55,537 nt of DNA from Aeropyrum sp. (lineage in GTDB: Archaea; Thermoproteota; Thermoprotei_A; Sulfolobales; Acidilobaceae): positions 1 through 55,537 of the forward strand of contig WAKF01000086.1 in the NCBI GenBank assembly GCA_015523465.1, written 5' to 3'. Numbering within the stretch: position 1 is the first letter of the stretch; the number at the start of each line of letters is the position of its first letter. Of the stretch, positions 8,590-55,537 are shown in pieces. Both the position numbers and the translations under genes were made by a program. The notes below the pieces were generated by a model, which did no database searches, was not told where the DNA came from, and saw only the letters and a program-made list of their open reading frames with translations.

Positions 8590-9900
8590 ATGAGTACCAG
8601 CCCCCCTTTTCTTTCGGAGCCCTGTGTAAGATGTGTACGGGGGTGTACGATAGTGTATATAGGGGGCCATCAGGTCTTCACTGATAAAGCAGTCTTTTCA
8701 GAATCCTACGTACCTTCGGAGTTGAGGGTTAGAGCCAAGGAGGCTGACATGCTCTTCAAAATATATTATAACAAACTATTCTCTACTGCGGGGCTTTCAG
8801 ACATAACTATTATATACGGTAGTATTGGGAGAGTTGGTATAGGAAAGACTACGATAGCTAAGTACGTAGCTAGGATGATTAGGGAGAAAGCTTCTAGGGA
8901 AGGCATTAAGGTTAACACTGCATACGTGAACCTGTTCACAGGCCCAAGCCTTTACTCGATACTATCTATGATAGTGAGGGACGCAGGCTTTAACATAACA
9001 GTTAGAGGCAGCCCGGTAATAGACATTCTTAAAGCCATAGTTGACAACCTATATATAAATAATTCCTACCTTCTAGTCATACTAGATGAGTTTCAGAATA
9101 TGCTTACCTCGCCTAGAGTGAACCCCGAGGACCTATACGCCCTCCTCAGGATCCACGAAGAAGTTCCGTCCAAGGATGGAGTTGCCAGGATAGGGTTTAT
9201 ACTGGTAGCCAGCGATATCCGAGCACTTAGTTATATGAGAGATATTATACCTCAAGTAGAGTCGCAGATAAGCTTTAAGCTCCACATGCCCGCCTATAGG
9301 TCTCACGAGCTATACGAGATCCTGAGGCAGAGGGCTGAGCTAGGACTAAGACCTGGGTCTTGGAGCGATGATATCCTGATGATGATAAGCGAGACCTATG
9401 GCGAGGATAGAGGTGGTGATGGTAGTGCTAGAAGAGCTATAATGGCGCTTAGAATGGCTGGTGAAATGGCTGAAGCTCGAGGTATAGGCATTATAGAGCC
9501 CAACCTCGTCAGGAAAGCTCTCTCAGAGCAAGAAGCTAGTAGTATTCCCGTCCGCGAGATAGAATCCCTAGGGCTACACGAGCTCCTCATACTAAAAGCT
9601 GTAGCAGACGCTACGGTCGAAGGGATCGAGATCCTAACTGCCGGAGAGCTTAGAAAACGCTATGAACTACTATGCGAGTCTTATAACGTGAAGCCTCGAG
9701 GGTACACACAATTCTACAACTACATTAGGCTACTATCCTCTACAGGCCTCATAGAGTCTAGGCTCTCCGGCAAAGGTATGAGAGGGAGGACTACCCTTGT
9801 GAGACTGACACCTCCAATACCGGCAGATAGACTTAAAGAGGTAGTAGAGAAGGCCATAACCCTTTCTATGAGTGGCGAAGGCAAGGGTGAAACCCAGTGA
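8590..9900 (+). CDS. Divergent Orc1/Cdc6-like AAA+ ATPase
   Basis: A 436-residue protein with Walker A GRVGIGKT (residues 80-87), Walker B LLVILDEF (161-168), a sensor-1-like VASD and a C-terminal winged-helix region from about residue 325 (LGLHELLILKAVADA... to RTTLVRL). The order matches archaeal Orc1/Cdc6 initiators, which bind ORB elements and recruit MCM. It is divergent: the N terminus has an unusual C-x2-C-x3-C (C12, C15, C19) that I do not associate with Orc1/Cdc6. No ORB-like dyads are visible beside this gene; the origin-like region is about 45 kb away. A related P-loop ATPase with another function cannot be excluded. Confidence 0.7.
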   Translation: MSTSPPFLSEPCVRCVRGCTIVYIGGHQVFTDKAVFSESYVPSELRVRAKEADMLFKIYYNKLFSTAGLSDITIIYGSIGRVGIGKTTIAKYVARMIREKASREGIKVNTAYVNLFTGPSLYSILSMIVRDAGFNITVRGSPVIDILKAIVDNLYINNSYLLVILDEFQNMLTSPRVNPEDLYALLRIHEEVPSKDGVARIGFILVASDIRALSYMRDIIPQVESQISFKLHMPAYRSHELYEILRQRAELGLRPGSWSDDILMMISETYGEDRGGDGSARRAIMALRMAGEMAEARGIGIIEPNLVRKALSEQEASSIPVREIESLGLHELLILKAVADATVEGIEILTAGELRKRYELLCESYNVKPRGYTQFYNYIRLLSSTGLIESRLSGKGMRGRTTLVRLTPPIPADRLKEVVEKAITLSMSGEGKGETQ

Positions 9901-20618: not shown

Positions 20619-21440
20619 GTGACTCGATCCCTTGTAGTTAAAGCTGGGGGTAGGACCTTAACCTCTAACCTAGACGGCATTGCAGAGAGTATATCCAGAG
20701 TCGTACGCATGGGCTTTAAGGTTGTTTTTATTCATGGAGGTGGCGACGAGGTCACCAAGTACTCAAGGATGATGGGTATAGAGCCCATGTTCGTAGTTTC
20801 CCCTGGAGGCGTTAAGAGCCGTTATACTAGCTGGGAGGAGCTCCAGGTGTATATAATGGTTATGGCGGGCCTCGTTAATAAGAGAGTGGTCTCGGCCCTC
20901 GTTAACCGGGGGGTTAACGCTTTAGGTGTGACCGGGGTAGATGCCGGGCTTGTCAAAGCCGTGAGGAAGAAGAGGATTATTATAGTGGACGAGAGGGGTA
21001 GGAAGAGAGTGATAGAGGGAGGGTATACTGGGAAGATCACTGAGGTATCCTTGGAGGTCCTACAGAGGCTACTAGCAGCATTCGAAGCCCTGGTAATAGC
21101 ACCAATAGCCCTCGGAGACGAGGGGGTACCCCTAAACGTTGACGGAGATCAGATGGCCTATGCTATAGCCGCTAGGCTGAAGGCGGAAAAGCTTGTATTG
21201 CTTACAGACGTTGAAGGCGTTATAGTAGACGGGAAGGTTGTAAATGTGTTGACTCCAAGCCAAGCGGAAGATCTGGCTTCGAGGGTGGGAGCCGGGATGA
21301 ACAGGAAGCTGTTAATGGCTGCGAAGTCCGTGAAGGAGGGTGTGGGAGAAGCTGTGATCGCGTCGGGGCTCGGGGAAGATCCCCTAGCTAAGGCTCTAAA
21401 AGGCTCTGGTACGAGGATAGTTAAAGCCGCTAACACTTAA
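20619..21440 (+). CDS. lysZ: [LysW]-aminoadipate/glutamate kinase
   Basis: A 273-residue amino-acid kinase. VVKAGGRTL and VFIHGGGDEVTKYSRMMGIEP bind substrate and phosphates, PLNVDGDQMAYAIAARL and VLLTDVEGVI are the conserved core and GAGMNRKLLMAAKSV the C-terminal ATP-site Lys. It phosphorylates the LysW-bound carboxylate. Forms the plus-strand half of the LysW pathway with lysY. GTG start. Confidence 0.92.
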   Translation: MTRSLVVKAGGRTLTSNLDGIAESISRVVRMGFKVVFIHGGGDEVTKYSRMMGIEPMFVVSPGGVKSRYTSWEELQVYIMVMAGLVNKRVVSALVNRGVNALGVTGVDAGLVKAVRKKRIIIVDERGRKRVIEGGYTGKITEVSLEVLQRLLAAFEALVIAPIALGDEGVPLNVDGDQMAYAIAARLKAEKLVLLTDVEGVIVDGKVVNVLTPSQAEDLASRVGAGMNRKLLMAAKSVKEGVGEAVIASGLGEDPLAKALKGSGTRIVKAANT

Positions 21441-53279: not shown

Positions 53280-53284
53280 AGGTG

Positions 53285-54622
53285 ATGGAGAAAGCCCCCC
53301 TGGTATCAGTAGCTGTGGATGATGTGGACTCTCCCTGGGGAGGGTGTACTACTCACTTTTCAGGCCTTCTACTAAAGAGGCTTCTAGACCTTGGAGTCGA
53401 GCTTGCAGACTATCCCCTCCTAGTAAGGCTAAACCCAGGGATTCCTTGGAAGACTAGGGGCAACGCTGCAGTTGTTCTAAGAGTTAGGGGGCTAGAGCCC
53501 AAAATCGTTATGGAGGAAGCCGTGTCCCTGGTTGATGAGTATGCTGGGTGGAGAAGGGAGCCTGGCAAGGGGCCTGGAGTAGTGGTCCTTGAGGGGAGCC
53601 CCTGGGACCCTAAGCTTAGGTGGCTTTACCGTAAAGCCCTTACTTCCATAGTGGTGCGCGATGTTGCATTGAAGGTTATTGAGAGTGTTGGGGGCTTGTG
53701 GTTTGGTGGTAGGGGCGTTGTGGGTGCTGCATCTTCTATTGCAGCTCTAGCCCCCGGCGACGATTACACGTGGGAGCTCACGGCTTATAGGAGGCCTGAT
53801 GTGTGGGGCTCTCCGAGGTGTATAGACCATGAGGCTGCTGCAAGGGTTGAAGCTAGACTCCCTCCATGTACATTCAACAACTATGACTTGATAGAGGGTA
53901 AGTTCTCAGCAGCTCCTCAGGGTCCCGACCCCGTGTTAGCCGGGTTCCGGGGTGATTGCCCTTGGGCTTTGAAAGCCTACTCAGAAGTCCTCTGCGAGAA
54001 GCCGCACTTCTGGGTGCTGTATAGGAGCAACCAGCACACAGACGCCCCTGCAGCTCTAGGACTAGTGGCTCCTCCAAGACCTTACAATTACGTTGTTATT
54101 GAAGGTTTAGTTGGGGGGAAGCCAGAGGTCCTACCCGGGTCTCACATTATAGTTAGGGTGTTAACCGGGGAGTTTACATTGGAAGCGGCATTCTACAATG
54201 AAGCATACCCTCTAAACAAAATAGCCTCTAGGCTGGCTGAAGGGGATAGAATAGTTATCCAGGGAAGCGTTAGACCCTACAGGCCTAGAGGTTACATGGT
54301 GGTGGCAGTAGACAAGCTAGTCGTAAAAGAGCTAGCCCCACTAGAATATACTACCTCCCCTCCATGCCCTAGATGCGGGAAGAGAATGAAGAGCGCCGGG
54401 AGAGGTAAAGGGTACAAGTGCCCGTCCTGCGGCTACAAGCTCAAGACTAGACCTATACACATAGACCTCCCCCGTAGGACCTCCCCCGGCATATACGCCC
54501 CGAGAGAGGGAAGGCTGAGACACCTAACAGCGCCTCCAGGACGAAAGCCTAAGAGATGGAAGCCCCCTGGCAAGATAGAACCTTCTAAAACAGTTTCATG
54601 GAGCATTCAACCCCCCGGTTAA
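53285..54622 (+). CDS. tiaS: tRNA(Ile2) agmatinylcytidine synthetase TiaS
   Basis: 445 residues from ATG 53285 (GTG at 53282 is the other choice). VAVDDVDSPWGGCTTHFSGLLLKRL is the TiaS N-terminal motif, followed by GLWFGGRGVVGAASSIAAL, DHEAAARVEARLPPCTFNNYDL, an OB-like region and a C-terminal zinc ribbon (CPRCGKRMKSAGRGKGYKCPSCG). TiaS modifies the wobble C34 of tRNA-Ile(CAU) with agmatine so it reads AUA. The last ~50 residues are basic and Pro-rich. Its 3' end borders the origin-like region. Confidence 0.95.
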   Translation: MEKAPLVSVAVDDVDSPWGGCTTHFSGLLLKRLLDLGVELADYPLLVRLNPGIPWKTRGNAAVVLRVRGLEPKIVMEEAVSLVDEYAGWRREPGKGPGVVVLEGSPWDPKLRWLYRKALTSIVVRDVALKVIESVGGLWFGGRGVVGAASSIAALAPGDDYTWELTAYRRPDVWGSPRCIDHEAAARVEARLPPCTFNNYDLIEGKFSAAPQGPDPVLAGFRGDCPWALKAYSEVLCEKPHFWVLYRSNQHTDAPAALGLVAPPRPYNYVVIEGLVGGKPEVLPGSHIIVRVLTGEFTLEAAFYNEAYPLNKIASRLAEGDRIVIQGSVRPYRPRGYMVVAVDKLVVKELAPLEYTTSPPCPRCGKRMKSAGRGKGYKCPSCGYKLKTRPIHIDLPRRTSPGIYAPREGRLRHLTAPPGRKPKRWKPPGKIEPSKTVSWSIQPPG

Positions 54623-54648
54623 CACCCCCCAGTTTCCACTGGAACTCC
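54623..54648 (-). repeat. ORB-like element 1
   Basis: Minus-strand reading: GTTCCAGTGGAAACT followed by a GGGGGG run and TG. The dyad TTCC-N3-GGAA is at 54634-54644 and the G-run at 54625-54630 (as C on the plus strand). Directly after the TiaS stop. Confidence 0.65.
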
Positions 54649-54676
54649 TTGCAATATCCTCCACGCCTGTATAGAG

Positions 54677-54710
54677 ACCCCCGGCCCCCCTAGCTTCCGT
54701 TGGAATACTA
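54677..54710 (-). repeat. ORB-like element 2
   Basis: Minus-strand dyad TTCCAACGGAA (54695-54705), then GCTA and a six-G run (54685-54690), with a second G-run beyond (54678-54682). Same orientation as element 1. Confidence 0.6.
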
Positions 54711-54862
54711 GTCTCGCCGCGCATTTGCCGATGGTTCAATGAAGGCTTCTTCTCGTTGAGACTTAGGCTCTGTGTACTTTGAAGGTAAGGTTTTACTATA
54801 GCTTTTGCATTATGTAGCTTTACCGAGTTTAAGTGTTTTTAAAGAGCTTACAGTTGGAGGTA

Positions 54863-54890
54863 GAGGGTTCCACCGGAAGTAGGGGGGTGG
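54863..54890 (+). repeat. ORB-like element 3
   Basis: Plus-strand dyad TTCCACCGGAA (54868-54878), then GTA and GGGGGGTGG (54882-54890). Opposite orientation to elements 1 and 2, across the AT-rich stretch. Confidence 0.65.
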
Positions 54891-54932
54891 GAGGCTACCA
54901 TTATGCTAAGGCATCCAAGCCTCTGTGCACCC

Positions 54933-54941
54933 CTTATAAGG
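54933..54941 (+). promoter_or_regulatory. TATA-like promoter of rpiA
   Basis: CTTATAAGG lies between ORB-like elements 3 and 4; 26 bases downstream is about 54963, upstream of all candidate rpiA starts. Confidence 0.4.
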
Positions 54942-54964
54942 ACCCCTCTGTTTCCTGTGGAGCG
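54942..54964 (-). repeat. ORB-like element 4
   Basis: Minus-strand CTCCACAGGAAAC then GAGGGGTC. The dyad's left arm is imperfect (CTCC), but this variant occurs in described crenarchaeal ORBs. It overlaps the predicted rpiA transcription start, so initiator binding could affect rpiA. Confidence 0.6.
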
Positions 54965-55015
54965 TTAAACGCATTCTACCCAGGCCACGTGATAGTTTCG
55001 CGGAGGGTGCTGGGA

Positions 55016-55537
55016 GTGGCAGTGTGCGACCCTAGGGTTGCTGCTTCGCGTGGTGCGCTGGAGCTCGTAGAGGGTTTGGGCGGCCTTTCGGGGAGGATTG
55101 TGGGCCTTGGTACCGGGTCTACGCTTCAAGCGTTTCTCTCTGAGGCCGCCAAGGCTTTAATGAGTGCTGAGGGTGTCGTTGCTAGTAGTATTGAAACAGC
55201 CCTCAAGGCTAGGTCCTACGGGTTTAGAGTACTGGATCCCAGGGTTTACCGGGGGGTTGACATTTATGTTGATGGAGCTGACGAGGTTGAGCTGATGTAT
55301 GGGAGCATGATTAAGGGTGGAGGGGGTGCTTTGCTGGGTGAGAAGGTCCTAGCCAGATCTAGCAGGCTCAACGTGTTCGTTGTAGGTGTTGATAAGGTTG
55401 TGGAGGTCCTAGGGTCTAGGAGGCCTGTGCCTGTCGACGTAGAATCCTCGTTCCTCTCAATGGTACTGGGCTTTGTGGAGGAGCTTGGATGGAGAGCCGA
55501 ACTTCGTATGGCGGGGGGTAAGAGGGGGCCTGTAGTG
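55016..55537 (+). CDS. rpiA: Ribose-5-phosphate isomerase A (5' part; runs off the window)
   Basis: 174 codons seen, no stop. ASRGALELVEGLG, GLGTGSTLQAFLSEAA (phosphate loop), VDIYVDGADEVELM, KGGGGALLGEKVLA and PVPVDV match RpiA, which interconverts ribose-5-P and ribulose-5-P. GTG 55016 follows a GGAGGG site at about 8 bases; GTG 55007 and GTG 54989 are in frame alternatives. Confidence 0.9.
   Translation, partial: MAVCDPRVAASRGALELVEGLGGLSGRIVGLGTGSTLQAFLSEAAKALMSAEGVVASSIETALKARSYGFRVLDPRVYRGVDIYVDGADEVELMYGSMIKGGGGALLGEKVLARSSRLNVFVVGVDKVVEVLGSRRPVPVDVESSFLSMVLGFVEELGWRAELRMAGGKRGPVV

Follow-up and report, generated by a model that had tools for sequence, protein, structure and literature searches.

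A predicted chromosomal replication origin of the Ori1 type between tiaS and rpiA in an Aeropyrum relative

Introduction

Does the short interval between tiaS and rpiA in a draft genome of Aeropyrum sp. contain a chromosomal origin of replication, and which initiator would act on it? The question is raised by a group of ORB-like elements at the end of the window, as we call the whole stretch of 55,537 nt analysed here. An earlier note, made from the letters of the window, had read this group as oriC. Strong support for that reading comes from the experimentally characterised Ori1 of Aeropyrum pernix, to which the locus is orthologous, and from a four-ORB layout found in about 30 relatives. Judged from sequence, the tiaS-rpiA cluster is almost certainly the chromosomal origin oriC1 and the ortholog of A. 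pernix Ori1. This call is made because of the identity of the ORBs, their uniqueness in the genome, the orthology with Ori1, the conserved layout and the presence of an Orc1-1 ortholog. The points at which the case is weakest are a weak ORB2, a diverged ucm motif (8/10), an offset minimum of the GC skew and a right flank that continues on a different contig. The features discussed below are collected in Table 1.

Table 1. Features of the predicted origin and related elements, in positions of the window
Feature	Position	Strand	Remarks
Orc1/Cdc6 paralog, A. pernix ORC2 ortholog	8590..9900	+	546 bits to 1w5s
Perfect palindrome away from the origin	20901..20918	+	inside an argB/acetylglutamate-kinase-like ORF (name from reading the ORF)
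tiaS	53282..54622	+	left flank; gene name from the title of the earlier note
Palindrome, second copy, 1 mismatch	54160..54177	+	inside tiaS
Palindrome at outer edge of ORB1, TTCAACCCCCCGGTTAAC, 2 mismatches	54606..54623	-	overlaps the end of tiaS; position -19
ORB1, TTCCAGTGGAAACTGGGGGG	54625..54644	-	G-string adjoins the tiaS stop codon; PWM 34.2
ORB2, TTCCAACGGAAGCTAGGGGG	54686..54705	-	weakest of the four; PWM 17.6
Presumed duplex-unwinding region	54706..54867		between ORB2 and ORB3; AT-rich core about 54765-54850
ucm-like motif, TTTGCATTAT	54804..54813	+	8/10 to TTTGTATAAT; aligned with TTTGTATCAT of A. pernix Ori1
ORB3, TTCCACCGGAAGTAGGGGGG	54868..54887	+	PWM 28.4
TATA-like box TTATAA, presumed rpiA promoter	54934..54939	+	abuts ORB4; conserved in Aeropyrum-type origins
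ORB4, CTCCACAGGAAACAGAGGGG	54943..54962	-	near match of the earlier note; best score, PWM 36.7
rpiA, 5' part	54989..55537	+	contig C86 ends inside; 3' end starts contig C45
Palindrome, third copy, 2 mismatches	55244..55261	+	inside rpiA

The ORB cluster

The window holds only three TTCC-N3-GGAA dyads, against an expectation of 0.9, and they lie exactly where the earlier note had placed them (54634, 54695 and 54868), each with a G-run on the same strand at a fixed distance. A fourth dyad, TTCCTGTGGAG at 54952-54962, had been listed as a near match; it is present, but it belongs to a full fourth ORB with the best matrix score of all and is not a lesser site. The G-run stands in the same register to every dyad (TTCCN3GGAA-N5-GGGG), on the minus strand at sites 1, 2 and 4 and on the plus strand at site 3. 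The inversion of sites 1 and 2 relative to site 3 around the AT-rich stretch 54765-54850 holds as proposed, while site 4 departs from simple mirror symmetry, the orientations from tiaS to rpiA being < < (AT-rich) > <. ORB2 and ORB3, which point in opposite directions, flank the interval between them.

The genome that was searched amounts to 1.80 Mb in 92 contigs and is 96.6% complete. It contains three exact matches to the dyad with its G-run, all at the tiaS-rpiA locus, and four exact matches to the family ORB consensus YTCCANNGGAANNNNRGGGG, which are the four ORBs themselves, within 340 bp; a single further match to the consensus appears at one mismatch. Dyad-plus-G-run clusters at many non-origin loci, which the earlier note had named as a sign against an origin, were looked for genome-wide and did not turn up. 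A genome-wide search of the ORB pattern with two mismatches gave noise, with more matches for the reversed control. Single dyads are not rare at an expectation of about one per window, and a chance gathering of palindromes and G-runs must therefore be weighed. This reading is refuted by the confinement of all exact genome-wide matches to 340 bp and by the conservation of the cluster at orthologous positions, and the probability left to it is vanishingly small.

A position weight matrix (PWM) was trained on the relatives with the present genome left out. In this ORB-profile scan, which the earlier note had suggested, the four sites stand clear of the window background (next best score 7.2; maxima of 20 Markov-shuffled windows under the same matrix 0.7-22.2), the matrix being circular for the relatives, whose training sites were picked with the core pattern, and not for the present genome.

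Orthology with A. pernix Ori1

In the genome presumed to be that of A. pernix K1 (G004; one contig of 1,669,696 bp), ORBs are found at 444917, 444992, 445148 and 445197, and these are the only high-scoring ORBs in the 400 kb from 245 to 645 kb. They fall into the published Ori1 at 444,909-445,231, of which the four ORBs are bound by Orc1-1 (PMC8287685), and rpiA lies directly beside them at 444319-444876. The spacings of the ORBs are 61/182/75 in the window and 49/156/75 in A. pernix. Because the same gene, rpiA, the same order and orientation of the ORBs and similar spacings are found at both loci, the tiaS-rpiA locus is, as far as sequence can tell, the ortholog of A. pernix Ori1. Marker frequency has identified two active origins in A. 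pernix (PMC10769869).

The layout ORB<, ORB<, AT-rich, ORB>, ORB< is common to about 30 relatives, mostly beside tiaS, and was recognised in most family genomes among those whose tiaS or rpiA locus was examined. Genome G009 is complete, and its 1.55 Mb contain just four sites with a score of 15 or more, all in one cluster at 549 kb.

The genes around the cluster have been rearranged in some lineages. In A. pernix and A. camini the origin stays by rpiA and tiaS lies about 3 kb off, having been relocated in A. pernix (L012, L044) across the origin to the flank with rpiA, which implies a rearrangement breakpoint at the origin. In two other genomes, G029 (L014/L047) and G047 (L018/L045), about 1.1 kb containing rpiA splits ORB1 from the rest of the ORBs and the ucm occupies the other strand, so that the origin is both rearranged and split. 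Outside the family, ORB clusters are seen directly downstream of tiaS in other families of the order (f3, f4, f10 and weakly f2; L076-L086), which suggests that the linkage between tiaS and the origin is ancient.

The cumulative GC skew has its minimum at 46.6 kb in the 80 kb obtained by joining contigs C86 and C45 (whose only links are an overlap of 12 bp and the rpiA gene divided between them), about 8 kb to the left of the origin and confounded by gene direction. In A. pernix, the minimum within 400 kb around Ori1 is at 455.6 kb, and gene orientation contributes there as well. The skew is consistent with the origin, but weak as support because of this contribution.

The unwinding region and the rpiA promoter

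The stretch 54765-54850 is 66% AT, compared with 50% for the whole window, and is in the top 2% of equal-sized windows. It forms the core of the presumed duplex-unwinding region, whose position matches that of the AT-rich region between ORB2 and ORB3 of A. pernix Ori1, which becomes P1-sensitive (PMC8287685). Most relatives have a ucm motif in their unwinding region, on the same strand and often at 10/10. The ucm-like motif of the window has p=0.16 on its own; what speaks for it is its position in the alignment, together with the 9-10/10 matches that relatives show on this strand. In Sulfolobus oriC1 the ucm is essential, and it is bound by UBP (PMC12141716).

The ORBs could also be read as transcription-factor operators for rpiA or tiaS at a locus that is no origin at all. 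This would fit the position of ORB4, which abuts the TATA-like box upstream of rpiA, but the four-ORB layout persists even with rpiA or tiaS at a distance of several kb, and Orc1 binds and melts the orthologous site of A. pernix (PMC8287685), which makes a purely regulatory role extremely improbable. An influence on transcription may nevertheless accompany the origin function: as ORB4 abuts the TATA-like box, Orc1-1 bound to ORB4 may compete with transcription of rpiA.

The initiator and its predicted mode of action

Two full Orc1/Cdc6 genes are present in the genome. The Orc1/Cdc6-like gene that the earlier note had pointed out at 8.6 kb of the window does exist, but orthology links it to ORC2 of A. 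pernix, whereas the ortholog of the ORB-binding Orc1-1 is encoded on contig C49 (G000:C49:34579-35664; 631 bits to the A. pernix ORC1 structure 2v1u). A. pernix ORC2 did not bind oriC1 (PMC5333045), and its ortholog in the window is probably not the initiator of the tiaS-rpiA origin. The predicted ORB binder and putative cognate initiator is the Orc1-1 ortholog on C49. That no cdc6 gene lies alongside the origin was seen correctly in the earlier note; the arrangement is not unusual, as it had been called there, since neither orc gene adjoins an origin in A. pernix either, as stated in a review (PMC5333045). Autoregulatory ORBs were considered for orc1-1 and orc2, and the upstream regions of both genes lack a convincing ORB.

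From the published work on A. pernix and Sulfolobus, the following course of events can be proposed for the present organism. The Orc1-1 protein would bind the four ORBs through the dyad and the G-string of each. Once all four were occupied, the AT-rich region between ORB2 and ORB3 would be distorted and melted, as published for A. pernix, and MCM would be recruited to and loaded at the melted region. A UBP-type protein at the ucm would help to release MCM, and forks would leave oriC1 in both directions. That oriC1 fires in the present organism is what we infer.

A candidate second origin

A protein with winged-helix features and a length of about 250 aa, here called wHTH-B, is encoded repeatedly in regions with several copies of the palindrome described below, and at the best copies in A. 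pernix and A. camini. It is usually preceded by the gene of a second winged-helix protein, wHTH-A. In most of 30 such loci a palindrome precedes the wHTH-B stop by about 0.8-1.1 kb and/or follows it by 0.15-0.35 kb, and in most of them a ucm (9-11/11) stands 55-137 bp past the stop. Genome G009 has six exact copies of the 11-bp ucm, one of them in ori1 and another after wHTH-B at 1.277 Mb, and the wHTH-B locus of this genome at 1.275-1.277 Mb (L238) is close to a second skew minimum at 1.27-1.30 Mb. The A. pernix locus is at about 1.260 Mb (L233). In the present genome wHTH-B is split between contigs C8 (1-561) and C56 (4-510; loci L221 and L118), with palindromes beside the two parts at C8:641 and C56:510. 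Genes for wHTH-B also exist in families f3, f4, f7 and f11. In the PDB the winged-helix protein was paired with viral spike constructs, and these matches were set aside as spurious.

The second origin of A. pernix is reported to depend on WhiP (PMC10769869). On account of this dependence and of the ucm, palindrome and skew context, wHTH-B may be WhiP, and its locus is probably a WhiP-type second origin. The Sulfolobus oriC3, a WhiP origin, likewise has a ucm next to the gene of a winged-helix protein.

A second candidate origin in the family bears on the question whether the tiaS-rpiA cluster, though a genuine Orc1-1 cluster, might be dormant or secondary, while the WhiP-type locus drives replication. 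Dormant origins are known from archaea (PMC4595724). Against this stand the four ORBs, the AT-rich region and the ucm, all kept intact across many genera, and the activity of the A. pernix ortholog by marker frequency (PMC10769869). A dormant origin is thus very unlikely, and an active oriC1 at the tiaS-rpiA locus is the preferred reading.

A palindrome near the origins

Alignment of the flanks of the ORBs brought out an inverted repeat outside ORB1. It has the form GTTAAC-YGGGGR-GTTAAC, of 18 bp, or 24 bp in the best genome; the full consensus in G009 is ATTGTTAAC-YGGGGR-GTTAACAAT, with little conservation beyond it. The spacer length is almost constant in this genome, as GTTAAC-N6-GTTAAC occurs 29 times and all other spacings from 0 to 15 account for one occurrence in total, where 0.1 would be expected per spacing. 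The GTTAAC pair is also the most frequent repeat with 6-bp arms at N6 spacing in G009. The reversed control of the pattern gave zero matches in all family genomes, and the palindrome is nearly absent outside the family Acidilobaceae, whose genomes carry it dispersed and in up to 29 perfect copies. The present genome has 14 copies at no more than one mismatch.

When two mismatches are allowed, 22 of 32 family origins have a copy at exactly 19-20 bp from the outer side of ORB1 and 27 have at least one within 1 kb, compared with 0.001 palindromes per origin in shuffled sequence. A second copy accompanies 23 of the 32 origins, at a distance of about 135-775 bp towards tiaS or of 280-360 bp towards rpiA. 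The 400 kb of A. pernix sequence contain only three palindromes, two of which bracket Ori1 (444595 and 445219). Clustering near the origins of G009 is modest (p about 0.06-0.13 in a blind scan with windows of 20-50 kb), and the weight of the link to origins is placed on the positions that are fixed across genomes, not on the clustering in G009 alone.

In its general features the palindrome resembles a partition or origin-control site. Like SegB sites and parS, it is palindromic, has tens of copies and clusters near origins. SegB sites have the consensus TCTAGA-S-TCTAGA and are mostly intragenic (PMC12284271); the palindrome differs from them in its arms and its asymmetric G4 spacer, and it is mostly intergenic (23 of 29 copies in G009). 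One reading, put forward tentatively and held to be possible rather than probable, is that in these SMC-lacking archaea of the Acidilobaceae the element brackets both Orc1- and WhiP-type origins at fixed distances, with about 30 copies at most, and might serve as a site for a partition or firing factor.

Three other identities were considered and rejected. A SegB site is not compatible with the GTTAAC arms, which differ from the TCTAGA-S-TCTAGA core (PMC12284271). A KOPS-like polarity does not agree with the mixed orientations of the palindrome in G009. ORC2 as the binding protein was discarded, the orc2 gene having no site with a G4/C4 spacer and ORC2 being reported not to bind oriC1 (PMC5333045). 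Provisionally, the palindrome is apparently undescribed: literature text searches, which did not cover the 2007 comparison of A. pernix origins, found no archaeal description of it among the papers listed.

Significance and comparison with known origins

The tiaS-rpiA origin is of a known type, that of A. pernix Ori1, and the absence of an adjacent cdc6 gene was already known for A. pernix. The analysis assigns an oriC1 to a new relative of Aeropyrum and follows the Ori1 module over many genera, mostly beside tiaS; fragmented metagenome assemblies can therefore be annotated for origins even where no orc gene points to them. The palindrome at both origins offers a testable lead on chromosome partition, or on joint control of two origins, in archaea without SMC proteins.

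Ori1 of A. pernix K1, reportedly characterised by Grainge in 2006, resembles the present locus in its four ORBs, which agree in order and orientation, in the AT-rich region that separates ORB2 from ORB3, and in having rpiA alongside. Both organisms lack an orc gene next to this origin and carry their Orc1-1 and ORC2 paralogs elsewhere. The two loci differ in the position of tiaS, which abuts ORB1 here and in A. pernix is found on the side of rpiA at a distance of about 3 kb, and in the sequence outside the ORBs, which has diverged and includes the ucm (TTTGCATTAT here, TTTGTATCAT there).

The oriC1 of Sulfolobus lies beside orc1-1 and carries the C2/C3 palindromes (PMC3718332). By contrast, no orc gene is found at the present locus, and GTTAAC-YGGGGR-GTTAAC is set apart from C2/C3 by description only. 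What the locus shares with oriC1 of Sulfolobus and Saccharolobus is the core of the origin, namely ORBs of the Orc1-1 type with a G-string, an AT-rich DUE and, in a diverged and putative form, a ucm.
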